Both the position numbers and the translations under genes were made by a program. DNA of 64,000 nucleotides from positions 1-64,000 of the forward strand of contig NZ_AULB01000003.1 of NCBI RefSeq assembly GCF_000425065.1. Reading direction: 5' to 3'. Origin of the DNA: Actinomadura rifamycini DSM 43936. Its GTDB lineage: Bacteria > Actinomycetota > Actinomycetes > Streptosporangiales > Streptosporangiaceae. Of the stretch, positions 4,058-56,768 are shown piece by piece (position 1 is the first letter of the stretch; each line of letters starts with the position of its first letter). Below the pieces are notes generated by a model. The model saw nothing but the letters and a program-made list of their open reading frames with translations, was not told the DNA's origin and ran no database searches.

Positions 4058-4366
4058 CTCCCTCCGCCGGTCCGGACGCCGGCGGGTCCGCCCGGCACCG
4101 TGTGCGTAGGGTACCGGCGTCCGCGGAGCGCGGCGAGCCTGCGCCGCCGCACGTCCGCGCAGGTAGCGCGGCCCGACGGCCGCTCACCGACAGCGGCGCG
4201 CTGACAGCATCGGCGGCGCCCGCTCCGGAGGTGGGCCCGGGGCGTCTCAAGACAGCCACATCATTGTTACTGCTTGTAGTTAAATGAATTCATAGAGTTA
4301 GCATGGTCCGCGCGGGATGGGTGTTCGTTCGGTCCGGGTTCGGCGCCCGCGACGAAGGAGTGACGG
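4058..4366. promoter_or_regulatory. 309-bp divergent intergenic region with AT-rich patch
   Basis: This gap separates the start of the minus-strand kinase from the plus-strand lyase. Most of it is GC-rich and featureless, but about 4258-4302 is sharply AT-rich for this genome and contains a perfect 10-bp palindrome ATGAATTCAT at 4284-4293. Promoter-like hexamers (TTGTTA, TTGTAG, TTAGCA) occur here without one convincing pair. I take the patch to be the promoter/operator region of the lyase gene. No gene is visible in the gap. Confidence 0.45.
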
Positions 4367-5221: not shown

Positions 5222-5272
5222 ACGGGCCTCGCTCGATCCGGCTGGACGCCGCGGGCGCGGCGGGGGCGGCCG

Positions 5273-7258: not shown

Positions 7259-7511
7259 ACCAGCACTCCCTCCAGCCGACGTTCAGGCGGCGTTCAGTGA
7301 TCACACCTTAGCGGTACCGGCCGGTCGGGCCGGTTGACCTGGTTCACGGTATCGCGGATCCGCGTCGATGAAGGTGACTGCTTGGGCGACGATTCGTCGG
7401 TTGATTGCGTTCACATTGCTATTGTGCTTTGCTGTGAACATCAGACGCCTCGCTGGACGAGCGCGGCGCTGGGCGCGACACCGAGGTGCCGCCGAGAACC
7501 ACGGAGAGAGC
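7259..7511. promoter_or_regulatory. Divergent promoter region with inverted repeat
   Basis: This 253-bp region separates the methylase gene from the DUF4352 gene. The part around 7395-7440 is AT-richer than its surroundings and contains GTTCACA at 7409-7415 and its reverse complement TGTGAAC at 7433-7439, 17 bp apart. That is the layout of a dimeric regulator site. The methylase HTH is an obvious candidate to bind here, by inference only. No clear -35/-10 pair stands out. Confidence 0.4.
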
Positions 7512-8273
7512 ATGAATCCCGGCCACGGAATCCCCGCACCAGGTCCGCAGCCCGCGGGCCCGCACGGTCCGCAGCACCTGCCGCCGCACCCGCCCCTTCC
7601 GCCGCACGGGCACCCGGCGGTCCCCCCGCCCCGGCGGCGCGGCAAGGGCTGCCTCTACGCGGCCGTCGGCGGCGTCGCGGCCCTGTTCCTGATGGTGGCG
7701 TGCGGGGCGATCGTCTCGACCGCGTCCGACCCGGCGGCCACGTCGTCCGGCACGGACGCCGGGTCCGCCGGGACGCGCGGCGAGGAGGCCGCCGCGGGCG
7801 GCGCGGGCACCGGGAAGGGCGCGGACTCGGAGAAGAGCGCGGAGCCCAGGAAGGGCGGGGCGAAGGTCGCCGACGGGATCGGGCGCGAGTACCGGGACGG
7901 CAAGTTCGCCTTCACCGTCACCAAGGTGAAGAAAGGCGTCGCGCGGGTCGGGAACCAGTACGCGGGCTCGGAGGCGCAGGGGCAGTACGTCCTCGTCCAC
8001 ATCACCGTCGAGAACATCGGCGACGAGGCCCGCATGTTCGACGGGACGAACCAGACGCTCATCGACACGAAGGGGCGCGAGTTCGAGGCCGACACCGAGG
8101 CGGCGATCTGGAGCAACCGGGACACGCGGTCGTTCCTGGAGCAGATCAACCCCGGGAACTCGGTGAAGGGCGTCGTCATCTTCGACGTCCCGAAGAACGT
8201 GAAGCTCAAGGCCATCGAACTCCACGACTCGATGTTCTCCGGCGGCGTCACCGTCCCCCTGGGCGGACGCTGA
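7512..8273 (+). CDS. Membrane-anchored DUF4352-type protein
   Basis: 253 residues from ATG 7512, which follows GGAGAG at about 7503-7508. A proline/histidine-rich N-terminus (1-45) leads to a single membrane helix (about 48-68). An Ala/Gly/Ser/Lys-rich linker follows, then a C-terminal beta-sandwich (about 130-253) of the DUF4352 type (YVLVHITVENIGDEARMF). Such Ig-like domains are extracytoplasmic and often sit in phage- or stress-linked loci. The function is unknown. It is the first gene of a rightward run with the ASCH-GTPase and the large helicase-nuclease. An upstream in-frame ATG at 7368 is open but lacks a ribosome binding site. Confidence 0.75.
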   Translation: MNPGHGIPAPGPQPAGPHGPQHLPPHPPLPPHGHPAVPPPRRRGKGCLYAAVGGVAALFLMVACGAIVSTASDPAATSSGTDAGSAGTRGEEAAAGGAGTGKGADSEKSAEPRKGGAKVADGIGREYRDGKFAFTVTKVKKGVARVGNQYAGSEAQGQYVLVHITVENIGDEARMFDGTNQTLIDTKGREFEADTEAAIWSNRDTRSFLEQINPGNSVKGVVIFDVPKNVKLKAIELHDSMFSGGVTVPLGGR

Positions 8274-8317
8274 CGCGCCCCGCGGCCGCCCGAACCGTCG
8301 TCATCACGGGAGTGGAA

Positions 8318-10705: not shown

Positions 10706-10865
10706 ACGGCGGGACCGACCGTCCCCGGCGGGCCGGGCGGCAGGTGGGAGGCTTGCGGGGACAACCGCGAAGTGTCGCCGGACGTCCCACACAGACCGCA
10801 TGCGAAGATCGCGCCCCCCGCGGCGGAGGCGCGAGTGCAGACGTTGAAGGGATGCGAGGGCGTAC

Positions 10866-15590: not shown

Positions 15591-15679
15591 GCAAGCCTCG
15601 CCGACTTTTCCGAATCGGTGGTTGATCGAGTTCACGCGTGCTCTAATGGTCGTGGTCATCCCCTAGCGCTGGAGCGGAC

Positions 15680-17452
15680 ATGCCCTTCGGAAACTGGACG
15701 CCGCACGAGGAGCTGAGCGGCGATCCCGGCGTCATCCGGCTCTCGGCGAGCCTGCTCGACCGCGACGACCGGCACTGCCGCGACTTCGCCGCGCTCAAGT
15801 CCCGCCCGCGGGTGTGGCCGCGCAGGCGGGGGGCGCGGCGGTACGCGCCGTGGGAGACGTTCCCGCTCGGGCTCGTGATGGACGCCCTGAACCTGACCGA
15901 GTTCGGGGACGTCCCCGCGGAGGACGCGATCGACAAGGCGCTCGGGCGGGCGCGGTCGGCGGTGCACCCGGGTGTCGCGGTGTGGGTGCGGCACGCGTTC
16001 GACGCGTACCTGCGGGCGGCCGAGTGGATCGCCGACGACCTCGAGGCCGAGGGCGTCGCGGTGCGTCCGGAGCCGCTGCCGCGGGTCGTCCAGGCGGAGT
16101 CGGCCGCGGAGCTGCGGGTGCTCACCGCGTGGGGACGCTGGTACGGGTCGGCCGACGGCGCCGTGCGGGAGTTCCGGCGGCTCCGGGTGGGGCGCCCCGG
16201 CGAGCGCGACGCGCCGTCGAACGACGCGCTCGCGTTCGTCGCGGCGGCGGGCCTGCGCGCGGAGAGCGACGTCTACCGGGACCTGCCGGTCGAGGTGCTC
16301 CCGGACGAGGTCGCACCGCAGCGCGTCCGGTTGGTCGAGGTCGTCCTCACGGGGGACGCGCCGCCGCGGGTGCTCGTGGACGCGCCGCCGGCCGAGGTCC
16401 GCCGCGTGTACCGGGAGCGCACCAGGCCGATCGTCACCGACATCGCGTTCGGCGTGGGCACCCGGCCGGGGTCCGACTGCGTCGACTGCAAGGTGCTGCC
16501 GACGTGCGGCGCGGTCCCGGACGTCCCGGGCCTGCTCGGCCTCGAGGGGCGCGGCACGCACCGCCGCACCTGGTCGGTGACGACCGGCCGCCAGTACCTG
16601 GTGTGCCCGGCGCAGGCGCACCTGCGGGAGCTGCACATCCCCGCCGCGCAGCGCTCGGACGGGACGGCGGCGCGGCGGGGACGCGCCGTGCACCGGTGGC
16701 TCGAGCTGGCGCACGGCCGCGCCGGCGCGCCGGCGTGCACCCGCGGCGACCTCCCCGACCCGGCGGGCGGGCTCGGCATCGCCGCCGGCGTCCTGACGCC
16801 CGAGGAGTACGCGGACGCCCACCCGTACCTGGCGGCGCACGTGGAGGTGTGCCCGCTGCGCGAACCGTCCGCGGACGTCCGGCCGGAACCCGCGGTGGCC
16901 GCGCACGACACCGAAGCGGACGTCGTGGTCATCGCCCACCCCGACCTGATCCGCACCACGGGCGGCACCGTCGTGTACCGGGAGCAGAAGACGACGCAGG
17001 GCGCTCCCCCGGCCGGGGACACCCGGACGGTCTTCACCCTCGTGCCCCAGCTGGCGCTGGCCGTCCTGCTGATGAAGCACGGCGTCCTCGGCGGCGACGG
17101 CGGCGGCATCGTCGAACTGGAGACGATGACGCCGTCGGGCGCGGAGGTGCTGCGGTTCGACGTGTGGGACCCCGACGTCCGGGAGGCCGCCCGCGAGGTG
17201 ATCACGTCGATGACCGCCCGCTGGCACGCCGACGAGTCCTTCCGTGCGCTGCCCGGCCCGTGGTGCGGCGGCTGCCCGGTCGCCGACTGGTGCCCCGACC
17301 GCGCGCCGAACGACCCCGGCGCCCCGATCGTGGTGGACGGCGTCCGCATCGACCCGCTCACCGGCGAGGTCCTCGGCGACGCCGTCACCGGCCGCGCCGC
17401 CGCGGTCGCCGACGGCGTCACCGACCCGACCGAGGAACCCCCGCCCTTCTGA
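15680..17452 (+). CDS. Cas4/AddB-like PD-(D/E)XK nuclease with Fe-S cysteines
   Basis: 590 residues. The C-terminal half is a RecB/Cas4-type nuclease: CPAQ (about 308), GRAVHRWLE (about 335, conserved His), HPDLI (about 419) and YREQKTT (about 433, the ExK of the active site). A final cluster WCGGCPVADWC (about 527-537), together with the first cysteine, suggests an AddB/Cas4-style iron-sulfur centre. The N-terminal half has a second cluster CVDCKVLPTC (about 267) and no recognised fold. The gene starts 90 bp after the helicase-nuclease on the same strand, so the two probably act together in DNA end processing or defence. The substrate is unknown. No adaptation genes or CRISPR repeats are present. 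Confidence 0.82.
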   Translation: MPFGNWTPHEELSGDPGVIRLSASLLDRDDRHCRDFAALKSRPRVWPRRRGARRYAPWETFPLGLVMDALNLTEFGDVPAEDAIDKALGRARSAVHPGVAVWVRHAFDAYLRAAEWIADDLEAEGVAVRPEPLPRVVQAESAAELRVLTAWGRWYGSADGAVREFRRLRVGRPGERDAPSNDALAFVAAAGLRAESDVYRDLPVEVLPDEVAPQRVRLVEVVLTGDAPPRVLVDAPPAEVRRVYRERTRPIVTDIAFGVGTRPGSDCVDCKVLPTCGAVPDVPGLLGLEGRGTHRRTWSVTTGRQYLVCPAQAHLRELHIPAAQRSDGTAARRGRAVHRWLELAHGRAGAPACTRGDLPDPAGGLGIAAGVLTPEEYADAHPYLAAHVEVCPLREPSADVRPEPAVAAHDTEADVVVIAHPDLIRTTGGTVVYREQKTTQGAPPAGDTRTVFTLVPQLALAVLLMKHGVLGGDGGGIVELETMTPSGAEVLRFDVWDPDVREAAREVITSMTARWHADESFRALPGPWCGGCPVADWCPDRAPNDPGAPIVVDGVRIDPLTGEVLGDAVTGRAAAVADGVTDPTEEPPPF

Positions 17453-20516: not shown

Positions 20517-21380
20517 TCAGAAGCCCATGTCGGAGGTTCGGCCGATGTTGCGGGCTCGGCGGTTCATCTCCTCCTTGTACCACTCGATGAACTCCTCCTG
20601 GTGGCTCATGTAGGAGGCGTGGGCGTCGGAGTGGCCGGGGTACGGTTCGGCGCCCGGGTCGAGGGGGGACGGGGGCGTGTAGGAGGACGTGGCGATCGAG
20701 GTGTGGAGGCGCTCGTCGAGGCCGGTGGCGATGACGTGGGCGGCGAGGAGGGTGCGGAGGTGGGGCTGGGCGGACGGGTTGACCTGGGTGGCCGAGCCGG
20801 ACACGAGGCGGCGGGCCCACAGCGTCCCGTCGGGGCCGAGGTAGCGGACGGCGTCGGACGCGGGGTCCTGCGGGGCGTTCGGGTCGGCGGACGGGGGCAG
20901 CGCCATCCGGACGACGACGTCGCACAGCGCCTGGTGGTTCGGGTCGCGCAGGTGGGCGCGGCCGGCGACGAGGGTGAGGCCGTCGGTGTCGAGGGGGCCG
21001 GAGGGCGGGTCGAGGGCCGCGCGGTGCTCGTTGGTGAGGTGCCCGATCGGACGTCCGTCGGGCGCGACGACGGCGTAGTGCGGCGGGCAGACGTTGCCGG
21101 CGAGCTTGTCGGGGCGGTCGACGAAGAAGAGCGTCGCGTTCTGGGCGTCCGCCACCCGGAGGGTGACGCGCGGGACGTGGTGCTGGGCGTTGGGCGGGGT
21201 CAGGGTCGGTCCGGAGGAGCGCATGAACCGCTTGAGGAACCCCTCTTTCCGCTCCTCCCCCACGACGACCGGGGACACGTCGGCGAGGACGGCGCCGGTG
21301 CCGGGGTCGGTCAGGCGGTAGTGCAGGTCCTGGGGCAGGGACTGCAGGTCGAACTGGGAGGCTTGGAACACGTTCGTCAC
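20517..21380 (-). CDS. Unknown protein, paralogue 2 (possibly tubby/LURP-one-like)
   Basis: 287 residues, the same length as its downstream paralogue. It shares FQASQFDLQSLPQDLHYRL, HHVPRVTLRVADAQNATLFF, IGHLTNEHRAAL, HLRDPNHQALCDVVVRM and GAEPYPGHSDAHASYMSHQEEF. The start is GTG 21378-21380. It precedes paralogue 1 by about 195 bp on the same strand. It is much richer in GC-ending codons than paralogue 1, suggesting the downstream copy is the more diverged or more recently acquired one. The function is unknown. It is separated from the oxygenase operon by only about 36 bp and could be read from the same transcript. Confidence 0.7.
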   Translation of the reverse strand: MTNVFQASQFDLQSLPQDLHYRLTDPGTGAVLADVSPVVVGEERKEGFLKRFMRSSGPTLTPPNAQHHVPRVTLRVADAQNATLFFVDRPDKLAGNVCPPHYAVVAPDGRPIGHLTNEHRAALDPPSGPLDTDGLTLVAGRAHLRDPNHQALCDVVVRMALPPSADPNAPQDPASDAVRYLGPDGTLWARRLVSGSATQVNPSAQPHLRTLLAAHVIATGLDERLHTSIATSSYTPPSPLDPGAEPYPGHSDAHASYMSHQEEFIEWYKEEMNRRARNIGRTSDMGF

Positions 21381-21416: not shown

Positions 21417-21656
21417 CTACCGGCGGCCGCGCGGCGGGCGGGGGCCGTCGGCCAGGGCGCGGAGGCGGGCGGCGGCCTCGGCGAGCTCCTCGGACGCGAC
21501 GACGCAGGCGGTGATGTGCTCGTGCAGGGCGGTGAACAGCCAGTCGGGCGCGGCGTCGTGGGTGCGGAGGCGGGCGGCGAGGGCGCGGAGGCGGTCGGCG
21601 CATTCGGCCATGGTCCGGGCGTCGGCGGCGAGGACCGCGCCGTGGTCGCGGGTCAC
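21417..21656 (-). CDS. Small helical protein of unknown function
   Basis: 79 residues, starting at GTG 21656 and overlapping the stop of the upstream lipase-like gene (GTGA at 21653-21656), so translation is probably coupled. It is almost entirely alpha-helical and Ala/Leu/Arg-rich (TMAECADRLRALAARL, then ACVVASEELAEAAARLRAL), a pattern expected of a small helical bundle or coiled coil that binds a partner. No family is recognised. It is the last member of the oxygenase/P450 operon and may be an accessory subunit. Confidence 0.6.
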   Translation of the reverse strand: MTRDHGAVLAADARTMAECADRLRALAARLRTHDAAPDWLFTALHEHITACVVASEELAEAAARLRALADGPRPPRGRR

Positions 21657-23656
21657 GCGGGGACGCCTTCGGTGCGGGTCGAGCGGTGCTCGCGGGACGT
21701 CCGGCACAGCAGCGGACGGGCGCCGTCCAGGCCCAGGAGGCGCAGGCGGCGGGCCATCGGGTGGTCGCCCCGGACCGTCAGGCGGGCGCGGGGCGCCGGG
21801 TGCAGGCGGGCGGGTCCGCGGACGTCGATGCGGGAGCGCAGCGGCGTCCCGCCGAGGAGGGAGCGGACGGCGACGCCGCGTTCGGCCGCCGGGAGCGCCG
21901 GGCCGAGGTCGCCGGCGAGGGACGCGGCGTCGCCGATCGCGAGGGCGGGTTCGAGGGCGACGGGCGCGGTGGTGGCGGCGTGCCCCCACAGTTCCCGGGC
22001 GATCTCGGTCGTGGCGGCGGTGCTGTAGACGGAGTCGACGAAGCGGACGGCGAGCGGGCTCCGGACGGCGATGCCGAGGTGCGCCTCGCGGTAGGGGCCG
22101 AGGCTCGTGTCGCGGTTGTCGAAGGCGTGCAGGACGACGAGGGCGCGGCCGCCGAGGAGGGCGGGGCGTCCGGGGCCGAGCAGGGCGCGGGCCGGGCCGG
22201 GGTCGGCGGTGAACCAGGCGGTGAGGGCGGCCCCGGACCGGCAGGTGATCGGCAGGTCGAGTTCGCGGCCGGCGACCGTCCGGCGGGTGGGCGCGGCGGG
22301 GGCGGGGTCGTCGAACAGCCGGTACACCTGCGAGCGGGTGACGGGGCCGTGGTAGCGGGCGAGGCGGCGGTCGATCTCCGCGCGGTGCTCGGGGAGGTCG
22401 TCGGCCAGGTTGGCGGTGTAGTGCTCGGCGGAGTGGCAGGCCGGGAACAGGTGGGTGGGGTCGGTGTAGTCGACGACGTACCAGCCGGGCCGGTCGATGC
22501 ACGTCCCGGCGCCCTGGCCGTCGAGGGCGGGGATGATGTCGTGCTGGTTGGTGACGCTGGCGACCCAGGTGTCCGGGGACGCCGGGCGCTTGAAGTCGAC
22601 CGGGGAGCCGACCGCGACGACGTGCGTGACGGTGCGGCGGGCGCAGAAGCCGGCGTCCTGGGCGAGGCTCATGACGGCCGCGCCGCCGGCGCTGTGGCCG
22701 ATCAGCGCGATCTCCGCGCCGGGCGGGACGCCGTAGTCGTCGATGGCGCGGGCGAGCGCGCGGCTGTAGGGGCCGCTGTCGCGGACGGTGCTGCTGAACG
22801 CGCCGAGCAGGTCGCAGGGCGAGGCGTCGTCGGGCACGCCGAGCTTCATGCCGGGCGCGTGGACGACGTGGCGGTCGGTGCCGTCGGGGCCGCGGACGGT
22901 CTGGACGAGCACCCGCCCGCCGGGCCCGAGGGCGCAGATGTTGGCGAGGAAGTCGAGGATCGAGCCGCGGTCCCGCAGCCGGTCGGCGGGGTAGGGGACG
23001 CGGACGGCCGCGCCGGCGCCGGAGTCCAGCAGGGCGACGGCGCGGTTGCTGATGCCGGTGAGCGGGTCGGCGGTCGCGGTGCCGGCGCCGGTCGCGATGA
23101 GCCAGGCGGTCGCGTCGTTGAGGGGGTTGCGGTCGAGCAGGGCGCGCAGCGCGAGGACCTCGCCGAAGACCGGCGCGATCGCGGTGAGGGCGCGGACGGC
23201 GCCGCGGTCGCGCACGAGGGCGTACAGGGCGCGGACGGAGTCGAGGTCGCGGTCGGCGGCGACGGCGTCGACGAGCCGCCGGACGAGCGGGTCGCGGAGG
23301 AGCCCGGGGTCGGTGAGGCCCACGGCGGTGATGCGCAGCCGCAGCGAGGTGACCATCAGCCGGATCGCGAGGCTGCCGGCGCCGGCCATGCCGCCGAGCC
23401 GTGCCGCGGCGGTGCCGAGCGGGCCGCCGGTGAGGGCGTGCCCGAGCCCGCCGGGGCCGGCGACGGCCCGCAGCAGGGCGTGTTCGGCGCGGGCGGCGGC
23501 GACGGGCGCGCGCGGGAGGGCGGCGAGCGCGCCGCCGCCGGTGAGGGCGGCGGTGGCGTGCGCGGACGCCTCGCGGACGGCCACCGCGGTCTCGGCGAGC
23601 TCGCGGGCGGCGCGGCGCAGTTCCGCGGCGGTCGCGGGGGCGGTCTCGGCGGTCAC
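21653..23656 (-). CDS. Alpha/beta hydrolase (lipase-like) fused to an acetoacetate-decarboxylase-like domain
   Basis: About 667 residues from GTG 23656, overlapping the stop of the COX-like gene by four bases. The N-terminal 200 residues are helical. The middle holds a lipase-type nucleophile elbow GHSAGG (about 317) with THVVAVGSPVDF and NQHDIIP downstream, as in class 3 or PE-PPE-like lipases. Residues about 470-640 resemble the acetoacetate decarboxylase fold: LGPYREAHLGIAV (about 515) and ARELWGHAATTAPVALE. The ADC Schiff-base lysine is not obvious. In this operon it could release a fatty acid from a lipid for the dioxygenase, with the ADC-like part binding or processing a carbonyl product; both are inferences. 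Confidence 0.7.
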   Translation of the reverse strand: MTAETAPATAAELRRAARELAETAVAVREASAHATAALTGGGALAALPRAPVAAARAEHALLRAVAGPGGLGHALTGGPLGTAAARLGGMAGAGSLAIRLMVTSLRLRITAVGLTDPGLLRDPLVRRLVDAVAADRDLDSVRALYALVRDRGAVRALTAIAPVFGEVLALRALLDRNPLNDATAWLIATGAGTATADPLTGISNRAVALLDSGAGAAVRVPYPADRLRDRGSILDFLANICALGPGGRVLVQTVRGPDGTDRHVVHAPGMKLGVPDDASPCDLLGAFSSTVRDSGPYSRALARAIDDYGVPPGAEIALIGHSAGGAAVMSLAQDAGFCARRTVTHVVAVGSPVDFKRPASPDTWVASVTNQHDIIPALDGQGAGTCIDRPGWYVVDYTDPTHLFPACHSAEHYTANLADDLPEHRAEIDRRLARYHGPVTRSQVYRLFDDPAPAAPTRRTVAGRELDLPITCRSGAALTAWFTADPGPARALLGPGRPALLGGRALVVLHAFDNRDTSLGPYREAHLGIAVRSPLAVRFVDSVYSTAATTEIARELWGHAATTAPVALEPALAIGDAASLAGDLGPALPAAERGVAVRSLLGGTPLRSRIDVRGPARLHPAPRARLTVRGDHPMARRLRLLGLDGARPLLCRTSREHRSTRTEGVPA

Positions 23657-25224
23657 GCGCCGCGCCGCGTCATGGAGACGAACCGGGGGCGGGGGTCCTC
23701 CGGGACGTTGCGGTGCAGGACGTCCGACAGCGTCCGGGTGCTCCCGATGATCCGCATGCCGAGCGGGGTGAACGTCTCGGGGGTGAGCACGCGCGGCGCC
23801 AGCAGCGGGTTGGTCAGCGCCTGCGAGAACGCGTCGATGGCGATGATCTTCGTGAGCAGCGGCGGGAGGATGGCCCGCGCGGAGCTCGGCTCCTCGGCGA
23901 ACAGGCCGACGTACAGGTCGAGGTCGTCGACGCTCGTGTACAGCTCGCGCAGGGCGTTGCTCACCCGCGGGTCGCCGGACACGTGCTCGAACCGCCGGAC
24001 GCGCGGGAAGCCGCAGTGCGCGCGGTAGTCGTTGTAGGGGGCGAGTTCGAGGGCCCGGGAGTCGGCGATGCTGGCGACGTCCACGGCGTGCAGGCTCGGG
24101 TCGGTGTTGAACAGGCCGATGCGCCCGGCGCGCTGCTCGGACGCCTCCTCGAAGAGCCGCCCGAGCCCGGCCTCGGGGAGCAGGTCCGGGGCGAAGAGGG
24201 TGGCGGGGACGGGGAGTTCCGATCCGCCGACGACCAGGGTGGACGGGATGAGGCTGTGCCAGCGGTAGACGAGGTTGAACTCGACCGACGCCCAGTTCTC
24301 GCGCTGCCACGGCGCGCCCGCGAGGCGGGCGGTGAGCGACGGGTCGAGCAGGAAGCGGAAGTGGTAGGGGGTGATGTGGTTGATGTACTCCTCGACCACC
24401 AGCTTGACGACCTCGACGATGACGATGTTGCGGGCCGTCTGGAAGAGGCGCTCGTCGTCCCACCGGGGGTTCCGCTCGGCGAGCAGGCGGGCCACCCGGT
24501 TGTGCTCGCGCAGGAACAGCACGGTGAGCATGGTGAAGCCGACCTGGGTGTTGCCGCGGTCGCCGGCGAGCGCGAAGAGCCGGTCGCGGCGCTCGTCCGG
24601 GAGCGTCTCGAACCGGACGACGTCCAGCCCGGCGAACTCGGACTTGATCTTGCCGTTCTCGCAGAGGTACGGCGGGAACTCGCCGCCGTTGATCGTCTGG
24701 CTCTTGAGCAGGCCGCCGTCGAAGGCGCGGACGGCGGCGGCCGCGGCGGCGTCGAGCCCGTAGAGGGGGTTGAGGTCGACGTGGTGGTTGGAGCTGCTCC
24801 GGCGGGGGTCGCGGGGCTCGGCGGCGTCGCCGCGCAGGAACCCGTCGGTGAACCACTGCGCGAAGTAGGCGAACAGGACGGTCGAGCGCGGGCACGGGAT
24901 CGTGTCGCCGGTGCGGGCGAACAGGCCGGCGGCGCGTTCGGGCGCCGGGCGGGCGCCGTCCCGGACGGGGACGGGCGGGAGGTGCCGGCCGCTGAACGTC
25001 TTGTCGGTGAGCGAGGCCCAGGACGTGTAGGGGGCCATGGTGCTGAGCGGTTCGGGCCGTCCGGGCATCTCGCGGACCGCCCGGTCGATGATGGCGGCGT
25101 TGAGCCCGCGCCGCAGCGGGCGGACGCTCTCGGCGGCCCGCCACAGCGGGCGCCCGCGGGTGAGGGCGAGGTAGCGCAGCCGGTTGGCCGCGCCGTCGGT
25201 GGCGATGCTCCGCGCGCCGGGCAT
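23653..25224 (-). CDS. Cyclooxygenase/linoleate-dioxygenase-like haem peroxidase
   Basis: Animal-type haem peroxidase of 523 residues that aligns with the COX/fungal Ppo catalytic domain almost end to end. EFNLVYRWHSLIP carries the radical tyrosine (Y320, COX Tyr385) and proximal haem His (H323). LFLREHNRVARLL (236-248) and ITPYHFRFLLDP are further COX landmarks, as is HHVDLNPLYG (147-156). FAYFAQWFTD (118-127) matches the COX distal helix but has Asp127 where COX has the distal His. Arg51 and Ser467 are candidate equivalents of Arg120 and Ser530. Expected reaction: fatty acid plus O2 to hydroperoxide. No signal peptide is visible. The P450 stop lies 2 bp from its ATG, so the genes are co-transcribed. 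Confidence 0.88.
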   Translation of the reverse strand: MPGARSIATDGAANRLRYLALTRGRPLWRAAESVRPLRRGLNAAIIDRAVREMPGRPEPLSTMAPYTSWASLTDKTFSGRHLPPVPVRDGARPAPERAAGLFARTGDTIPCPRSTVLFAYFAQWFTDGFLRGDAAEPRDPRRSSSNHHVDLNPLYGLDAAAAAAVRAFDGGLLKSQTINGGEFPPYLCENGKIKSEFAGLDVVRFETLPDERRDRLFALAGDRGNTQVGFTMLTVLFLREHNRVARLLAERNPRWDDERLFQTARNIVIVEVVKLVVEEYINHITPYHFRFLLDPSLTARLAGAPWQRENWASVEFNLVYRWHSLIPSTLVVGGSELPVPATLFAPDLLPEAGLGRLFEEASEQRAGRIGLFNTDPSLHAVDVASIADSRALELAPYNDYRAHCGFPRVRRFEHVSGDPRVSNALRELYTSVDDLDLYVGLFAEEPSSARAILPPLLTKIIAIDAFSQALTNPLLAPRVLTPETFTPLGMRIIGSTRTLSDVLHRNVPEDPRPRFVSMTRRGA

Positions 25225-25225
25225 G

Positions 25226-26608
25226 TCAGGCGCTCCCTTCGCCGGACGGGCCGAGTCCGAGGACGAACCGGTCGGGGAACACGCCGCGGTCGCGCACGAC
25301 GTCGCCGTCCGGCGGCGGCAGGAGCCGGACGTCCCGGCGCAGCAGGCGGCGCGCGACCTCGCCGACCACCGCGGCGCCGGGGTGGACGCCGAGGCACGCG
25401 TGCGGGCCGTGCCCGAAGTGCAGGTAGACGTCGGCGGGGCGGCCGGGGCGGTAGTCGTCCGGGTCGGGGACGGCGTCGCCGTCGAACATCGCGGACGCCG
25501 CGGCGGCGAGGACGAGCGTGCCGGCGGGGACGGTCGCGGCGTGCGGGGTGCCGGCGGCGAGCACGTGGTCGCGCTCGCAGAACCGCGTGATGACCTTGAG
25601 GAACGGGTCGAAGCGCAGCGCCTCCCAGACGTGGCCGTCGAACCGGGCGGGGTCGGGGCCGCGGGCGGCCGCCGCGGCGCGGGCGTGCGCGTCCGGCCGG
25701 GACAGCAGCTCGCGGACGAGGTGGACCAGGGAGCCGGACGCGTTCTCGACGAAGCCGAGCATGAGCGCCGCGACGTTGATCAGGACGCGTTCGTCGTCGA
25801 CGCCGGCGCGGGCGGGGAGCGGCGTGCGGAGCAGGCGGTCGAAGACGTCCGCGGGCGCGTCGTCGCGGTGCCCCGGGGCGGCGCGGCGTTCGGCGAGGCG
25901 CTCGCGCAGGTGGTCCATCATGGCGCGGCCGGCGGCGGCGGACCCGGCGCGGACGGCGGGGTCGCCCGCCGGGTTCGCGGTGACGTCGGCGATCACGGCC
26001 CGGGACCAGCGGGAGAGGGTCGCCTCGTCGGGGCCCGCGAAGCCGAAGTACTCGGCGCAGACCGCGAGCGCGACGCGGCGGAACAGGCCGCCGACCGCCT
26101 CGATGCGGCCGTGCGGCTCGGCGGCGTCGAGGGCCGCGTCGGCGGCCCGGCCCGCGAGCGCCCGCACCGCCGGGACGTCCTCGGGCGGCAGCATGATCTG
26201 CATGAGGCCCCGCTCCCGCCAGTTCAGCGGCGTGGCGTCGCGGGAGAGGACGACCGGGCCGCCGAGGGCGCCCTCGAGCCGGTCGGTGTAGGCGGCGACG
26301 GTGAACACCTCCCAGCGGGACAGCACCTCGCGGACGTCCGGGGCGCGGGTGACGAGCGCCAGGCCGGGCGCGAGCAGGACGGGGCGCCGGGCGCGGAGTT
26401 CGGCGAAGAGGGGGCGCCAGTCGGTGCGGAGCCAGCCGGTGAGGAGCGCCGGGGCCGCCGCGGGGTCGCGGCGGACGGCCGCGTCGTACTGCCGCAGGTA
26501 ACCCTCGGTGGTCGTCTGCTGGGACCGTTGCATGCGGCGGACCTCTTGTTCGGTCGGTTCCTGCGGCGGCGGGAGGGGGTTTCCGGCGCCCTGATCACGT
26601 GCGATCAC
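25226..26608 (-). CDS. Cytochrome P450 with Asn in place of the I-helix Thr (putative hydroperoxide isomerase)
   Basis: About 460 residues. The haem loop HFGHGPHACLG (Cys ligand) and the K-helix EALR (EXXR) are intact. The I-helix reads MLGFVENASGSL rather than the (A/G)Gx(D/E)T(T/S) motif, so the oxygen-activating Thr is replaced by Asn. P450s that rearrange peroxides without NADPH (prostacyclin synthase, CYP74, the P450 half of fungal Ppo enzymes) show such changes. With the adjacent COX-like gene this suggests a hydroperoxide isomerase. GTG 26608 gives the longest form. ATG 26533, with AGAGG upstream, gives 435 residues and suits the promoter at 26622-26650 better. Confidence 0.87.
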   Translation of the reverse strand: MIARDQGAGNPLPPPQEPTEQEVRRMQRSQQTTTEGYLRQYDAAVRRDPAAAPALLTGWLRTDWRPLFAELRARRPVLLAPGLALVTRAPDVREVLSRWEVFTVAAYTDRLEGALGGPVVLSRDATPLNWRERGLMQIMLPPEDVPAVRALAGRAADAALDAAEPHGRIEAVGGLFRRVALAVCAEYFGFAGPDEATLSRWSRAVIADVTANPAGDPAVRAGSAAAGRAMMDHLRERLAERRAAPGHRDDAPADVFDRLLRTPLPARAGVDDERVLINVAALMLGFVENASGSLVHLVRELLSRPDAHARAAAAARGPDPARFDGHVWEALRFDPFLKVITRFCERDHVLAAGTPHAATVPAGTLVLAAAASAMFDGDAVPDPDDYRPGRPADVYLHFGHGPHACLGVHPGAAVVGEVARRLLRRDVRLLPPPDGDVVRDRGVFPDRFVLGLGPSGEGSA

Positions 26609-26621
26609 ACGTCGTGGCGGG

Positions 26622-26650
26622 AGATTAGCGGCACGTGACGATGATCACAA
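26622..26650 (-). promoter_or_regulatory. Sigma-70-type promoter of the P450/COX-like/lipase operon
   Basis: On the minus strand TTGTGA (complement of 26645-26650) is followed after 17 bp by TAATCT (complement of 26622-26627). Transcription would begin near 26615, only about 7 nt before GTG 26608 and about 80 nt before the alternative ATG 26533. The surrounding bases contain repeated GATCAC/GTGATG words that could be an operator shared with the divergent desaturase promoter. Confidence 0.55.
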
Positions 26651-26685
26651 TGCGTGATGACGAAAAGCCAGGACATGACGACCGT

Positions 26686-26715
26686 TTGTGACGTCTTCAT
26701 TACTCTTCGGATACT
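26686..26715 (+). promoter_or_regulatory. Sigma-70-type promoter of the desaturase gene
   Basis: TTGTGA at 26686-26691 is followed after 18 bp by GATACT at 26710-26715. The -35 hexamer is identical to that of the divergent operon promoter, with which it sits back to back. This hints at co-regulation of the desaturase and the oxygenase/P450 operon. Confidence 0.5.
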
Positions 26716-26738
26716 GTCAGCGGTGTCCGGCGCCTCCT

Positions 26739-26772
26739 TCAATGGGCAGCGTCCGTCAATGGGCGGCGTCCG
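26739..26772 (+). repeat. 17-bp tandem repeat in the desaturase leader
   Basis: Two head-to-tail copies (26739-26755 and 26756-26772) of a 17-bp unit beginning TCAATGGGC, with one mismatch (A/G). They lie between the predicted promoter and the ribosome site GAGGGG (26783-26788). This could be an operator or a leader duplication. Confidence 0.7.
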
Positions 26773-26793
26773 CCGGACCGACGAGGGGAACCG

Positions 26794-27834
26794 ATGCCCG
26801 GATCCGCACCCGCCGCCGAGACCGTGGCGATCTCGCCGGCCCGGCGCGCCGCGTACCTGGTCGTGCTCGTCGCGCTCCCGCCGCTGGCCCTGGCCGCGGG
26901 CGTCGCCGTCGCCTGGGGGCGGGGCATCGGCCCGCGCGACGCGGTGATCGCCCTCGCCATGTACGTGATCAGCATCTACGGCATCGGCGTGGGCTACCAC
27001 CGGCTGTTCACGCACCGGTCGTTCAAGTGCCGGCGCCCGCTGCGGATCGGCCTGGCGCTGGCGGGCGGGCTGGCCGTGGAGGGCCCGGTCAGCCTGTGGG
27101 CGGCCGAGCACCGGCGGCACCACAAGTACGCCGACCGGCCCGGCGACCCGCACTCGCCGTGGGCCTACGGCGAGACGGCCCGCGGCCTCGCGCGGGGGCT
27201 GCTGCACGCGCAGGCCGGCTGGTTCTTCACCGCGCGCCGCAGGTCCGACCGGCGGCACTGGGCGCCCGACCTGCTCGCCGACCCCGACGTCCGCCGGCTG
27301 GACGCCGCCTACCCCGCGGTGGTCGCCCTGTCCTTCCTGCTCCCCGCCGCGGCCGGGGGCCTGTGGTCGTGGTCGTGGGCGGGCATGTGGACGGCGCTGT
27401 TCTGGGGCGGCCTGGTGCGGTACGCGGTCGTCCACCACGTGACCTGGTCGGTGAACTCGCTCGCGCACGCCTTCGGCGACCGCGACTTCCGCACCCGCGA
27501 CCGGTCGACGAACCTGCCGCTGGTCGCGTACCTGACGCTCGGCGAGGGCTGGCACAACTGGCACCACGCCGACCCGACGAGCGCCCGGCACGGGGTGCTC
27601 AAGGGGCATCTCGACCCGAGCGCCCGGCTGATCCGGCTGTTCGAGCAGGCCGGCTGGGCCTACGACGTCCGCTGGCCCGACCCGTCCCGGGTCGCCGCCC
27701 GGCGCGCGTCCGCCGAGCCGTCCGAGCCGTCCGAGCCGTCCGAGCCGTCCGAGCCGTCGGAGCCGTCCGAGCCGTCCGAGCCGTCGGAGCCGTCCGAGCC
27801 GTCCGAGCCGTCGGAGCCGTCCGGCGTTCCCTGA
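26794..27834 (+). CDS. Membrane acyl-CoA (delta-9 type) fatty acid desaturase
   Basis: 346 residues with the three histidine boxes of membrane di-iron desaturases: HRLFTH (69-74), EHRRHH (105-110) and GWHNWHH (252-258). The short gap between boxes 1 and 2 is typical of stearoyl-CoA-type enzymes. Membrane helices lie at about 20-40, 50-65, 85-100, 170-190 and 195-215. It would introduce a double bond into a saturated acyl chain. It is divergent from the COX-like/P450 operon and may supply its unsaturated substrate. The C-terminus ends in 11 Ser-Glu-Pro repeats (from 27721) that lie antisense to the tail of the next P450 gene. The ATG is supported by GAGGGG at 26783-26788. Confidence 0.9.
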   Translation: MPGSAPAAETVAISPARRAAYLVVLVALPPLALAAGVAVAWGRGIGPRDAVIALAMYVISIYGIGVGYHRLFTHRSFKCRRPLRIGLALAGGLAVEGPVSLWAAEHRRHHKYADRPGDPHSPWAYGETARGLARGLLHAQAGWFFTARRRSDRRHWAPDLLADPDVRRLDAAYPAVVALSFLLPAAAGGLWSWSWAGMWTALFWGGLVRYAVVHHVTWSVNSLAHAFGDRDFRTRDRSTNLPLVAYLTLGEGWHNWHHADPTSARHGVLKGHLDPSARLIRLFEQAGWAYDVRWPDPSRVAARRASAEPSEPSEPSEPSEPSEPSEPSEPSEPSEPSEPSEPSGVP

Positions 27835-29084
27835 GGGCGGCCGGCGGGGTCGGGCCCGGCGACCGGATGCCTGCCCGGAGGTCCCCCCGGGTCGGCGTGG
27901 GTGAAGGTGACCGGGAGCCGGACCGGGCAGCGCGTCCACGGGGACGGCTCGTACTCGAGGTCGGCCGGGTCGATGGCGAGCCGGACGCCGCGCAGCGCGT
28001 GCAGGACGGTCGCGACGGCCGTACGGGCGATGGTGCGGGCCGGGTCGCGGGCGGGGCACGCGTGCGGGCCGGCGCTCCAGGCGAAGTGCGCGCGGTTGCC
28101 GCGCTGCCAGAACCGGGCCCCGGCGTGCGCGCGGACGTCGTGCGCGACGGCGGCGAGGCCGAGGACGAGGGCGTCGCCGCGGGCGATGGCGCGGCCGCCC
28201 AGCTCGGTGTCGCGCAGCGCGAACCGGGCCGGCATGTTGATCATCGGGGGCGCGACGGCGAGGACCTCGTCGAGGGCGTCGTCGATGCCGAGCCGCCCGC
28301 CGCGGACCCGTCCGGCGAACCGGGGGTCGGTCAGCATGAGCCGGAGCGTCTGCGCGATCCAGCTCATCGTCGTGTGGTTCCCGGCGGACACGAGGACGGC
28401 GACCGACCGCAGCGCCTCGGCTTCGCCGCGCAGGCCGGGGTGCGCGAGGAGCAGCGACGCGACGTCGTCGGCGGGCCGCGCGCGGCGGGCGGCGAGGAGC
28501 CCGCCGAGCAGGGCCTCCAGGCGGCGGTCGCCGTCCCGGGCGTCCTCCCCGGAGCCGCCGGAGAGGGCCCGCACGGCGTCCCGCAGCTCGCGGCTCTGCC
28601 GGGGGTCGAAGCCGATGAGGCCGCCGAGGGCCAGCAGCGGGACGGTCGCGGCGTACTCGGCGACGAGGTCAGCGGAGCCGCGGTCGGCGAACGCGCCGAT
28701 GAGGCCGCGGCACAGGTACTCGACGGTGCGGCGCAGCCGGCGGTGGTCGACGGCGGCGATCGCGTCCTCGACGGGGCGGCGCAGCCGGCGGTGCTCCTCG
28801 CCGTCGTGGCCGGTGACGTTGTCGCGGAAGAACATCATCGGGCCGAGGGGCGAGTCGGGCCGGACGGCGCCGTCCCGGAAGGCGCGCCAGTCGCGGCCGT
28901 CCCGCGAGTACAGCCGCGGCGACCCGGTGACCGTCTTCAGCTCCTCGTAGCCCATCACGAGCCAGGCGTGCACGCCCGGTTCGAGCTCGACCGGGGCGAC
29001 GGGGCCGTGGTCGCGCCAGAGCCGGTCGAACACCGGCCCCGTGTCGGGGCAGGTGGTGGTGGCCGCCAGCGGCAGGGGGTTCAC
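27660..29084 (-). CDS. cvnE: Cvn-operon cytochrome P450 lacking EXXR (CYP157-like)
   Basis: 474 residues from GTG 29084, overlapping the GTPase stop by four bases. The haem-binding Cys is present (WSAGPHACPAR), but the K-helix reads DEVLAVAPP, so the arginine of EXXR is missing. The I-helix is AGNHTT, with His where Asp/Glu is usual. CYP157 members found in actinomycete conservons are known to lack EXXR, so this is probably one of them and may not be an ordinary monooxygenase. A tail of about 75 residues includes 11 Gly-Ser-Asp repeats and runs 175 bp antisense into the desaturase gene. A role with the GTPase module is inferred from position. Confidence 0.85.
   Translation of the reverse strand: MNPLPLAATTTCPDTGPVFDRLWRDHGPVAPVELEPGVHAWLVMGYEELKTVTGSPRLYSRDGRDWRAFRDGAVRPDSPLGPMMFFRDNVTGHDGEEHRRLRRPVEDAIAAVDHRRLRRTVEYLCRGLIGAFADRGSADLVAEYAATVPLLALGGLIGFDPRQSRELRDAVRALSGGSGEDARDGDRRLEALLGGLLAARRARPADDVASLLLAHPGLRGEAEALRSVAVLVSAGNHTTMSWIAQTLRLMLTDPRFAGRVRGGRLGIDDALDEVLAVAPPMINMPARFALRDTELGGRAIARGDALVLGLAAVAHDVRAHAGARFWQRGNRAHFAWSAGPHACPARDPARTIARTAVATVLHALRGVRLAIDPADLEYEPSPWTRCPVRLPVTFTHADPGGPPGRHPVAGPDPAGRPQGTPDGSDGSDGSDGSDGSDGSDGSDGSDGSDGSDGSDGSADARRAATRDGSGQRTS
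27721..27819 (+). repeat. 11-copy 9-bp tandem repeat coding on both strands
   Basis: Eleven exact-length copies of TC(C/G)GAGCCG. From the third copy the variants follow a C, C, G order three times, so the last 81 bp are three copies of a 27-bp higher-order unit. On the plus strand it encodes Ser-Glu-Pro repeats of the desaturase, and on the minus strand Gly-Ser-Asp repeats of the P450. Slippage would change both proteins in frame. Confidence 0.95.
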
Positions 29085-29722
29085 GGGGCGGGCTCCCGGA
29101 CGGTGAGGGCGTGCTCGGCGAGCGCGACGAGGGCCGCGACGGACGAGTCGCGGTCGAGGGCGTTGCAGTCGACGATCGGGGTGTGCGGCAGCAGGTCGAG
29201 GGCGCCGCGGAGCCGGTCGTGGGGGTGCGGCGGGGTGTCGGGGAAGTGGTTGACGGCGACCGCGAACGGCGCGGCGACGTGCGTCTCCACCTGGTCGAGG
29301 ACGTCGAAGCCGCCGGCGAGCCGCCGCGAGTCGACGATCACCAGGACCCCGACGGCGCCCTCGGCGAGCCCGGCCCACATGTCCCAGAAGCGGCGCTGGC
29401 CGGGCGTCCCGAACAGGTAGAGGGCGAGAGACGGGTTCAGGGTGATGCGCCCGAAGTCCATCGCGACGGTCGTGGACGTCTTGCCGGGGAGCCGCGCGAG
29501 GTCGTCCACGCCGGTGCTGGCCTCGGTGATGGGCTCTTCGGTGCGCAGCGGGCGGATCTCGCTGACCGAGCCGATGAACGACGTCTTGCCGACGCCGAAG
29601 TCGCCGACGACGAGGATCTTGGCCGTCCGGGCGACGGTGTCGGCGACGTACGGCCCCGGCGGACCGGGCGCGGCGGGCGGGGCGGGCGGATCAGAGGGAG
29701 CGTCAGAGGGCGCGGAGCCCAT
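29081..29722 (-). CDS. cvnD: Cvn-type small GTPase (CvnD)
   Basis: 213 residues. After a Pro/Ala-rich N-terminus, GDFGVGKTS (about 40-48) is the P-loop and LFGTPGQRRF the switch II region. AVNHF takes the place of the G4 motif, as is usual in the MglA/CvnD group. It is expected to cycle between GTP and GDP under control of the roadblock protein encoded two genes upstream. It overlaps the DUF742 gene by about 20 bp and the P450 gene by 4 bp, so the five genes form one translationally coupled operon. In streptomycetes such operons tune development and antibiotic production. Confidence 0.93.
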   Translation of the reverse strand: MGSAPSDAPSDPPAPPAAPGPPGPYVADTVARTAKILVVGDFGVGKTSFIGSVSEIRPLRTEEPITEASTGVDDLARLPGKTSTTVAMDFGRITLNPSLALYLFGTPGQRRFWDMWAGLAEGAVGVLVIVDSRRLAGGFDVLDQVETHVAAPFAVAVNHFPDTPPHPHDRLRGALDLLPHTPIVDCNALDRDSSVAALVALAEHALTVREPAP

Positions 29723-30071
29723 CGAGCACCTCCTTCAGCAGGTCGATTCCGGGTTCGGTGTGGCCGCCGGCGAGGGTCTCCAGGCGGCCGGCCGCGACGA
29801 GGTCGCCGACCAGCACCCGGACGGCGCTGACCGGCAGCTCCAGGTGCGCGGCGGCCTCGGCCACCGACAGGACGCCGCCGGCGCAGAGCCGCAGCAGCGC
29901 GCGGAGCTGCGGCGGGGCGTCCGCCGGGAGCGGTTCGGCGGCCCCGGCGGGCGGCGGGACCGCCTTCAGCAGCGTGTCGACCCCCACCCGGGCCCCCGGG
30001 CCGGCGGCGCGGCCGCCGGTGACCACGTAGGCCCGCAGCGGCGTGTCGCGGTACTCGCCGGGGCCGGACAA
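29703..30071 (-). CDS. cvnC: DUF742 protein (CvnC)
   Basis: 122 residues, DUF742 family. The N-terminal RAYVVTGGRA leads to a winged-helix-like region (LLRLCAGGVLSVAEAAAHLELPVSAVRVLVGDLVAAG). The predicted TTG start at 30069-30071 abuts the stop of the roadblock gene. The family always occurs in Cvn operons and is thought to connect the sensor module to the GTPase; its biochemical activity is not known. Confidence 0.92.
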   Translation of the reverse strand: MSGPGEYRDTPLRAYVVTGGRAAGPGARVGVDTLLKAVPPPAGAAEPLPADAPPQLRALLRLCAGGVLSVAEAAAHLELPVSAVRVLVGDLVAAGRLETLAGGHTEPGIDLLKEVLDGLRAL

Positions 30072-30072
30072 G

Positions 30073-30462
30073 TCAGCCGCTCCCCCGCGCGGGCGTGGCG
30101 AGCTGCTCGCCGAGCTTCAGCACGGTCGCCTGCATCTCCTGCGCGACCAGCGCCGCGTTGATCACCGGGCCGGTGACGACGGCGAGGCACGAGCGGGCGG
30201 CGGCGCTGCGGACGAACAGGTAGCCGCCCTCGTGCCCGACCATGAGCTGGTGCAGGGCCTTGGCGCCGGTGCCGAACTCCCCGGCCTGGTCGCGGGCGAG
30301 GGACAGCAGCCCGCTGCACCGTGCGGCGAGCCGGTCGGCCTCGTCCCGTCCGGTGTCGGCGGAGCGCGCCTTGAGCAGGCCGTCCACGGTGCACACGATG
30401 GCGTGCCGGACGCCCTGGACGCGGGCGAGCCGCGCCACCACCCAGTCCTGGTCAGCCGTCAT
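30073..30462 (-). CDS. cvnB: Roadblock/LC7 protein (CvnB)
   Basis: 129 residues, a single Roadblock/LC7 domain (WVVARLARVQGVRHAIVCTV, then VTGPVINAAL). It is the likely regulator (GAP-like) of the CvnD GTPase by analogy with MglB. The ATG at 30462 has AGGAGG seven bases upstream and overlaps the CvnA stop. Confidence 0.93.
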   Translation of the reverse strand: MTADQDWVVARLARVQGVRHAIVCTVDGLLKARSADTGRDEADRLAARCSGLLSLARDQAGEFGTGAKALHQLMVGHEGGYLFVRSAAARSCLAVVTGPVINAALVAQEMQATVLKLGEQLATPARGSG

Positions 30463-31973
30463 CGGTCCTCCTGTCGTCGGTTCGGTGGTGCCCCGGGGGG
30501 CGGGGCGGGCGCGTCCGGCGCGGGGGTGTTCGGCGCGGGTGCGCCGGGCGCGGGGGCGTACGGGATGAGGGCGTCCATCAGCGCCCCGGCCTCCTCGGGC
30601 GTCTCCGGCGGCGGCGCGACCGGCGGCGGGCCGGGCGGCGGCACCGGGCGGAGGGCGGCGCGGTGGCGGCCGCGGCGGGCGACGCGCTGCGGGAGGGCGT
30701 CGCCGGGGCCGGCGGGGCCGCCGTCCCCCGCCGGGTCCGGCGCGGCGGGCGGCTCGGGCCGCGGCGCCGGGGCGTCCATGGCGTCGGGGACGAGGACGAC
30801 GGCCTGCAAGCCGCCGTAGGGCGACTCCCCGAGGCTGACCTTGAAGCCGTGCCTCCGCACGTAGCGGGCGATGACGGCGAAGCCGAGGCGCGGCACCTCG
30901 CCCATCTCGGCGAGGGTGACCTCGCGGGAGCCGTCCAGCAGTTCGCGGGCGAGGGTGAGGCGGGGCTCCTCGAGGCCGGCGCCGTGGTCGTCGACGCGGA
31001 ACACGGCGCCCTGCGCGGCGGCGGTGACGCGGACGGTGACGGGCGCGGCGGTCGGCGACGACTCGGTGGCGTTGGCGAGCAGTTCGGCGAGGACGTGGAT
31101 GACGGCCTCGAGCACGACGGGCCCGACCGCGAGGTCGGGGTCGCCCTCGATGCGGACGCGCTGGAAGTCCTCGATGCGGGCGGCGGCGGACTGCACGACC
31201 TCGGCGAGCCGCATCGGGGTGTCCCACTGCTGGCCCTCCCACGTCCCGGCGGCGACGGCGAGGCCCTGCGCGAGGCGGGCGGACTGCGCGGCGAGGTGGT
31301 CGATGGCCTGGCAGGCGAGGTACACGTCGGCGTGGTCGCTGTGCCGTTCGGCGGTGACGGCGGCCTCGGCCTGGACGCGGTGCATGGCGGACTGGACGCG
31401 CCGGGCGAGCGCGACGGTCGCGAGCTGCTGGGACTCGAGCCGGCCGCGGGCCTCGGCGCGCAGTTCGGCGACGGCTTCGAGGGCGGCGTCCCGGGCGGCG
31501 GCGAGCGCGGCGCCGCCGGAGCCGGCGCCGGGGTCGCCGGCGAGCGGCGGCGGGACGGGCTCGCCGCGCAGCGCGGCGGGCAGCTGCGCGGTCAGCAGGT
31601 GGTCGGCCATCGCGGCGAGGGCGTCGCGCTGCGCGGCGACGCCCGCGACCTGGGCGTGCCGGGCCCGTTCCCGGTCGGTCTCGGCCCGGTCGCGGCGCCG
31701 CAGCTCGTCGTCGCGGCCGCGCAGTTCGGCGGCGTGCGCGGCGGCGTCCCGGGCGGCCGCCGCGCACGCGGCGCGGCAGCGGGCGTGCAGCCGCCACGCG
31801 GCGGCCGCGGCGGCGAGGGCGGCGACGGCGAGCAGGACGGCCAGCCCCCGGTGCAGCGGTCCCGTGCCGCCCCCGGGCAGCAGGGGCGCCGCGACGGCGA
31901 GCACGGCCGCGCCGGCGGCGGGCAGCAGCGCCGCGGGCCCCGGAGCGGACGGGAGCGGGGTTGTGTTCATCAT
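30459..31973 (-). CDS. cvnA: Histidine-kinase-like sensor (CvnA)
   Basis: 504 residues. Two N-terminal hydrophobic segments (about 12-35 and 43-62) anchor it. A helical region of about 220 residues follows, rich in Ala, Arg and Glu, then an HATPase_c domain (about 275-405) with LAELLANATESSP as the N box and VDDHGAGL as the G box. The C-terminal 100 residues are Pro/Ala-rich and disordered. No phosphoacceptor His in a standard H-box is obvious, as is common in CvnA proteins. It is the first gene of the conservon; the stop overlaps the ATG of the roadblock gene. Confidence 0.9.
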   Translation of the reverse strand: MMNTTPLPSAPGPAALLPAAGAAVLAVAAPLLPGGGTGPLHRGLAVLLAVAALAAAAAAWRLHARCRAACAAAARDAAAHAAELRGRDDELRRRDRAETDRERARHAQVAGVAAQRDALAAMADHLLTAQLPAALRGEPVPPPLAGDPGAGSGGAALAAARDAALEAVAELRAEARGRLESQQLATVALARRVQSAMHRVQAEAAVTAERHSDHADVYLACQAIDHLAAQSARLAQGLAVAAGTWEGQQWDTPMRLAEVVQSAAARIEDFQRVRIEGDPDLAVGPVVLEAVIHVLAELLANATESSPTAAPVTVRVTAAAQGAVFRVDDHGAGLEEPRLTLARELLDGSREVTLAEMGEVPRLGFAVIARYVRRHGFKVSLGESPYGGLQAVVLVPDAMDAPAPRPEPPAAPDPAGDGGPAGPGDALPQRVARRGRHRAALRPVPPPGPPPVAPPPETPEEAGALMDALIPYAPAPGAPAPNTPAPDAPAPPPGAPPNRRQEDR

Positions 31974-56767: not shown

Positions 56768-56768
56768 G

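Follow-up and report, generated by a model that had tools for sequence, protein, structure and literature searches.

A candidate bacterial oxylipin module pairing a cyclooxygenase-like dioxygenase with a cytochrome P450 in Actinomadura rifamycini

Gene content and layout of the locus

The locus described here lies in Actinomadura rifamycini DSM 43936, on contig NZ_AULB01000003.1. The stretch analysed, hereafter the window, covers 64,000 nucleotides (positions 1-64,000 of the forward strand). Within it, four genes encode a lipase-like hydrolase, a cyclooxygenase (COX)-like haem dioxygenase, a cytochrome P450, and a membrane acyl desaturase (Table 1). All four are found where an initial annotation of the sequence had put them. 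That annotation proposed a pathway split between two proteins, in which the dioxygenase and the P450 act in turn on a fatty acid supplied by the other two enzymes.

The arrangement of these genes is far beyond chance. The three minus-strand genes had been described as overlapping, which holds for the lipase and dioxygenase genes (4 nucleotides) but not for the P450 and dioxygenase genes, which abut with 1 nucleotide between them. A short open reading frame (ORF) runs in the same direction and overlaps the lipase stop by 4 nucleotides, and the desaturase is transcribed divergently from the whole set. ATG 26533 is the likeliest P450 start, and GTG 26608 is an alternative further upstream. Because genes outside this flank are not conserved beside the module in relatives, they set its borders.

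Table 1. Features of the module and of the adjoining gene set in the window.
Feature	Positions	Strand	Basis
ORF of 79 amino acids, function unassigned	21417..21656	-	Open reading frame; present in a subset of conserved loci
Lipase-like alpha/beta hydrolase with helical N-terminus and C-terminal acetoacetate-decarboxylase-fold domain lacking the catalytic Lys	21653..23656	-	Motifs, structure prediction
COX-like fatty-acid dioxygenase, putative bacterial 10S-dioxygenase type, 523 amino acids	23653..25224	-	Pfam An_peroxidase PF03098, COX-2 homology, motifs
Divergent bacterial cytochrome P450, 435 amino acids from ATG 26533	25226..26533	-	Pfam PF00067
Divergent promoter region	26622..26715	both	TTGTGA hexamers on each strand
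Membrane acyl desaturase, SCD1-like, 346 amino acids with low-complexity SEP-repeat tail	26794..27834	+	Pfam PF00487
Conservon-like set	27834-29078, 29084-29722, 29706-30071, 30462-31973	-	Second P450, CvnD-like ATP-binding, DUF742, HATPase genes

The dioxygenase

The dioxygenase belongs to the peroxidase-cyclooxygenase superfamily. It matches Pfam An_peroxidase (PF03098) with an E-value of 6.6e-48 (164 bits against a cut-off of 25) and human COX-2 with an E-value of 5.5e-60, in an alignment that spans residues 14-511. Its Tyr280, Tyr320, and His323 are the equivalents of COX Tyr348, Tyr385, and His388, and these residues are invariant in all 63 diverse dioxygenase sequences compared, the window included. 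These matches and the retained catalytic residues bear out the assignment as a COX-like haem dioxygenase. The two residues that mark prostaglandin H synthases are absent. Asp occupies the position of the COX distal His207 in 63/63 sequences (Asp127 in the window), and Ala465 stands at the position of Ser530, the aspirin site.

The same departures from the COX active site are given for the characterised 10S-dioxygenase (10S-DOX) of Nostoc (PMC13049297). The motifs reported for that enzyme, F143-t-d-s-F, Y305IxxIT310P, and DA487FxQ490A (PMC13049297), agree with the clade of the window dioxygenase, whose terminal motif DAFSQA fits the DAFxQA printed for Nostoc B2J5P4. Nostoc 10S-DOX forms 10S-hydroperoxides from oleic and linoleic acid, and a catalase-related lyase from a separate gene then processes them (PMC13049297). 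Since the Nostoc enzyme acts on these two acids, similar substrates are suggested for the window dioxygenase. By its motifs, the window dioxygenase is of the bacterial 10S-DOX type, and oxygenation at C10 with S configuration is predicted by analogy. A second, unrelated-looking gene of the animal-haem-peroxidase family is present elsewhere in the same genome (G000:C41:5501-7201; L082, L084; 277 bits).

Conservation of the dioxygenase-P450 pair within the family

The window's family was sampled with 201 genomes from 68 genera. The dioxygenase is found in 35 genomes (14 genera), the lipase-like protein in 35, and the P450 in 34. Dioxygenase and P450 occur together in 34 genomes, and the P450 occurs without the dioxygenase in 0/201. 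One genome, G131, carries a dioxygenase without the P450, and this dioxygenase is distant. The co-occurrence gives a Fisher p of 1e-37, a descriptive figure that ignores shared ancestry. The initial annotation had staked its proposal on the gene pairing being kept in relatives, and the pairing is kept.

Across the 36 family loci compared, the P450 is present in 34, the lipase in 31, the desaturase in 30, and all three together with the dioxygenase in 28. The conserved unit in the Streptosporangiaceae/Thermomonosporaceae is the dioxygenase and the P450, accompanied by the lipase and usually by the desaturase.

Alternation of partners beyond the family

A contig scan with the dioxygenase alignment confirmed 245 relatives, and the best 80 of these 245 were examined as named loci. 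They come from Actinomadura, Nonomuraea, Streptosporangium, Thermomonospora, Acrocarpospora, Frankia, Solirubrobacter, and cyanobacteria, with one Verrucomicrobia and one Chloroflexi metagenome-assembled genome. In most of these 80 loci, the dioxygenase has one of two haem-protein partners. A P450 of this family lies beside it in 49 loci (L091 has a partial P450 match only), and a catalase-related gene lies just downstream in 17 cyanobacterial loci, with PF00199 confirmed for the three such genes tested. None of the 80 loci has both.

Two cyanobacteria (L123 and L137, whose P450s are PF00067 members) also have the P450 pair, as does a further actinobacterial family (L074-L076, about 50% and 45-48% identity). 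The dioxygenase tree places P450-paired L137 as the fully supported sister of catalase-paired L094 and requires no fewer than 6 changes of the P450 label. The partners have therefore been exchanged, lost, or transferred. The two haem proteins diverge in step: P450 distances correlate with dioxygenase distances (r 0.88), and none of 2000 permutations reached a value as high. Among the 16 genomes with a dioxygenase but no adjoining P450, 15 have no member of this P450 family anywhere. The exception, G143, carries one at another site, beside a Tle1-like phospholipase gene (L166:5878-9255) and with no dioxygenase nearby. The split two-protein pair that had been proposed is supported by co-occurrence, by correlated divergence, and by the fact that the genes also adjoin in distant actinobacteria and in two cyanobacteria. 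Thermomonospora echinospora (L091 / L060) has a second dioxygenase copy, upstream of which lies only a C-terminal P450 fragment of ~95 residues, possibly the remnant of a decayed pair.

The cytochrome P450

The P450 meets PF00067 and carries WEALR as its ExxR motif, FGHGPHACLG as its Cys haem loop, and GFVEN in its I-helix. E304, R307, and C380 (A2 numbering) are invariant in the alignment. The structure model has a predicted local distance difference test (pLDDT) score of 90.3. Its top-ranked structures are P450BioI with acyl-acyl carrier protein (acyl-ACP; Z 39.0), tied with other rows within 1 Z, all of which are bacterial P450s. Profile search and fold comparison concur in grouping the enzyme with ordinary bacterial P450s. 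Neither the 60 best-scoring profile hits nor the first 50 fold rows include a solved eukaryotic oxylipin P450 (CYP74, CYP8A1). Within that range, the comparisons give no evidence for a relationship with Ppo, CYP74, CYP5, or CYP8 P450s and none against one.

Two groups of P450s differ from the window enzyme in diagnostic features. CYP74, the allene oxide synthase (AOS) group, has an extended haem-binding loop, whereas the window P450 has the standard bacterial one. The conserved I-helix Asn of CYP74 is also not shared, as other members of the window P450 family have Thr or Ser. CYP152 peroxygenases have Arg in place of the I-helix acid/alcohol pair, where this family keeps a Glu throughout, with Thr, Asn, or Ser as the next residue.

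The replacement of the I-helix Thr by Asn had been singled out in the window P450. The observation is correct (E287-N288), but it does not extend to relatives, and the argument built on it fails. The residue after the invariant Glu differs by clade: Thr in the deepest relatives (distant actinobacteria and cyanobacteria), Asn in Actinomadura, Thermomonospora, and Acrocarpospora, and Ser in Streptosporangium and Nonomuraea. Asn is thus best read from the alignment as a lineage trait and not as proof of isomerase chemistry, and it was rejected as a diagnostic. Fungal AOS enzymes bear Thr or nonpolar residues at this position (PMC13049297), so Thr or Ser is compatible with isomerase chemistry. The fungal 8R/9R-AOS, which act on hydroperoxides, have Thr. 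A regular-expression scan of the flanks of 87 P450-bearing loci found no credible ferredoxin-like gene, and its lone match looks spurious.

Hydrolases beside the dioxygenase

The lipase-like protein has a GHSAGG motif and invariant S322, D373, and H408, which probably form a catalytic triad. Structure prediction supports an alpha/beta-hydrolase core (Z 8-9), and the match to Lipase_3 (PF01764) is 15.5 bits, below the cut-off of 22. The C-terminus (residues ~457-667) adopts an acetoacetate decarboxylase (ADC) fold, with Z 22.4 and 2.2 A over 198 residues for a structural match that spans residues 459-667, and Foldseek also matches this domain (E 3.2e-09). Acetoacetate decarboxylase forms its Schiff base through a Lys in a REIYGxPKK-like motif. 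The window domain has the fold in common with that enzyme but not the motif, as it reads RELWGHAATT at the catalytic site and contains zero Lys overall. This Lys is absent in every relative of the protein, and several relatives have no ADC-fold domain at all. The lipase-ADC fusion of the initial annotation is accordingly confirmed as a fold, while a role as a decarboxylase was rejected.

Unrelated hydrolases recur beside related dioxygenases. A Tle1-like phospholipase-type protein (PF09994; identity checked against Pfam in L112, L108, L109, and L099) is encoded directly upstream of the dioxygenase in 14 cyanobacterial loci. In three loci, the two share one reading frame of 933-944 amino acids (L112:5081-7912, L108:5792-8590, and L114:6825-9623), and a catalase-related gene follows the fused frame in each. 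In Frankia (L088) and in cyanobacterium L139, unpaired dioxygenases have patatin-like phospholipases nearby. That unrelated hydrolases have been brought together with the dioxygenase, or fused to it, argues for a lipid-derived substrate. The suggestion that the lipase supplies substrate gains independent support from these phospholipases.

Desaturase and promoter region

The desaturase is SCD1-like (E 5.8e-31). As a supply partner, it fits in being divergent and present in most loci, but it is not essential. The cluster copy is missing in 6/36 family loci, two of which (L047 and L055) are otherwise complete, with lipase and P450 in place. Paralogues are found in 197/201 family genomes. The desaturase is therefore an accessory of the module. 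Its C-terminal tail (27710-27830) consists of low-complexity Ser-Glu-Pro repeats that are not conserved.

Matching TTGTGA promoters had been described between the divergent genes. Both hexamers exist, at 26645-26650 on the minus strand (with TAATCT at a spacing of 17 nucleotides) and at 26686-26691 on the plus strand (with GATACT at a spacing of 18 nucleotides). However, the hexamer is present in only 2/26 loci in the forward and 6/26 in the reverse direction, with the window counted in both, and it was rejected as a conserved regulatory site.

Proposed pathway and alternatives

The locus probably encodes a self-contained bacterial oxylipin module built on two proteins. The substrate, the site of the hydroperoxide, the step catalysed by the P450, and the module's role in the cell are predictions. 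The lipase-like hydrolase would release a monounsaturated fatty acid from a lipid, and the desaturase would help to make that acid, whose chain is most likely C16-C18 with the double bond at C9. The dioxygenase would take an allylic hydrogen through its tyrosyl radical (Tyr320) and add O2, forming a hydroperoxide for which the Nostoc enzyme suggests 10S as the best guess. For the P450, this hydroperoxide would serve as oxidant as well as substrate, which would make a redox partner unnecessary, and its isomerisation or cleavage would yield a diol, epoxy alcohol, ketone, or aldehyde. The steps from lipid to acid to hydroperoxide are most likely given the characterised homologue. Rearrangement or cleavage by the P450 is the most likely second half, as suggested by its association with the dioxygenase and its alternation with catalase-related partners. 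A more specific reading is attractive but tentative: that a redox-partner-free hydroperoxide isomerase or lyase arose from ordinary bacterial P450s, is interchangeable with catalase-related proteins as the enzyme that acts after a lipase and a dioxygenase, and makes an actinomycete oxylipin not yet described.

Several observations weigh against an oxylipin module. In G143, the P450 lies far from the sole dioxygenase, which is distant (43%), and 14 of the 80 examined loci have neither partner adjoining the dioxygenase. The absence of the COX distal His raises the question of how haem oxidation starts catalysis, although Nostoc 10S-DOX has the same trait. The P450 keeps the I-helix acid, and the canonical Glu-Thr of the deep branches allows for ordinary hydroxylation with O2 and NAD(P)H. 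Many bacterial P450s rely on redox partners encoded elsewhere, so the local absence of such a gene is weak evidence. A conventional monooxygenase that, once the dioxygenase has made its hydroperoxide, hydroxylates either the fatty acid or the reduced product with O2 and a non-local ferredoxin would agree with these residues, including the Ser of the Streptosporangium/Nonomuraea clade, and with the grouping of the P450 by sequence and fold. This is nevertheless unlikely, given that none of the 201 family genomes has the P450 without a dioxygenase, that its place is taken elsewhere by a protein of the type that is a hydroperoxide lyase in Nostoc, and that the scanned flanks contain no redox partner. 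The fungal 8R/9R-AOS, moreover, act on hydroperoxides with Thr at the position in question.

The nature of the substrate allows another reading, in which acyl-ACP, acyl-coenzyme A (acyl-CoA), or an intact lipid is oxidised and the lipase and its ADC-fold domain serve as a transferase, lid, or lipid carrier. The P450BioI-acyl-ACP complexes at the top of the fold ranking (tied with others), the missing catalytic Lys, and the sub-threshold Lipase_3 score all point this way. Free oleic and linoleic acid are the substrates of Nostoc 10S-DOX (PMC13049297), and other, independent phospholipase-type hydrolases are repeatedly found next to the dioxygenase, which makes this reading quite unlikely. Membrane-lipid repair or detoxification, in which the dioxygenase and P450 would clear unwanted unsaturated lipids or peroxides by oxidation during stress, with no dedicated signal product, is very unlikely. 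A lipase with haem enzymes would also fit the turnover of damaged lipids, as would the patchy distribution across 14/68 genera. However, the COX/10S-DOX motifs, with Asp for the distal His, lead one to expect the making of peroxide and not its removal, and most loci include a divergent desaturase. The oxylipin module remains the preferred reading.

Comparison with known systems

A COX-like dioxygenase is paired with a P450 as separate proteins in animals and as fusions in fungi. No earlier report of this pairing in bacteria was found in the open-licence literature (subscription literature lay outside the search), where the only bacterial systems described are those of the catalase-paired cyanobacterial enzyme. 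Among the closest known systems is the Nostoc punctiforme linoleate 10S-dioxygenase with its catalase-related hydroperoxide lyase (Brash et al., 2014, as cited in PMC13049297). The window dioxygenase falls in the same clade, with 47-49% identity to catalase-paired cyanobacterial dioxygenases, and has the same substrate recognition site (SRS) motifs and the same Asp at the distal-His position. Both systems consist of two separate adjacent genes, for a dioxygenase and for a haem protein that processes, or is here proposed to process, the hydroperoxide. They differ in that the window partner is a P450 and that a lipase/ADC protein and a desaturase are added.

Fungal Ppo, linoleate diol synthase (LDS), and dioxygenase-AOS (DOX-AOS) enzymes likewise combine a COX-like dioxygenase with a P450 that has an HxCxG haem loop. 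Unlike these single fused polypeptides, the window enzymes are encoded by separate neighbouring genes. In Ppo and LDS, the P450 domain needs no reductase to turn over the fatty-acid hydroperoxide, and the same is predicted for the window P450. The Asn at the SRS4 position is shared with Ppo by the window P450 but not by all of its relatives, and the P450 itself belongs with ordinary bacterial enzymes. In animals, COX and the P450s CYP8A1 or CYP5A1 are separate proteins that act in sequence, which is the logic proposed here. Tyr385 and His388 are kept in the window dioxygenase, whereas His207 and Ser530 are replaced, and its sequence gives no sign of cyclooxygenase (endoperoxide) chemistry. Close kinship of the window P450 to CYP8A1/CYP5A1 was not found in the profile and fold comparisons.

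If the proposed module is real, oxylipin biosynthesis would extend to antibiotic-producing soil bacteria. Small, soluble, separate enzymes would become available for studies of hydroperoxide isomerisation, and the origin of the dioxygenase/P450 partnership would become testable. Such operons could also serve as models of what preceded the fungal fusions. That P450 and catalase-related proteins alternate at one place would offer a natural experiment in the processing of one hydroperoxide.

Neighbouring regions of the window

The second P450 (27834-29078, minus strand) was rejected as a part of the module, being found beside it only in the closest relative. It has no recognisable ExxR motif and sits with DUF742, ATP-binding CvnD-like, and kinase-type ATPase genes in a conservon-like set that is separate from the oxylipin module. 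The ORF at 20517-21380 and the genes further left were also excluded, as they are not conserved beside the module. Positions 289-17449 resemble a defence island, with a UvrD helicase, a PD-T4-6-like Ser/Thr kinase, an N6 DNA methylase, a 1574-amino-acid AAA/REase_MTES_1575 protein (PDC-S37-like), and a PDDEXK nuclease (PprPDDEXK). Thioesterase and non-ribosomal peptide synthetase genes, the latter encoding two condensation/adenylation/peptidyl carrier protein (PCP) proteins, occupy 55199-63892 on the minus strand and are cut by the window end.

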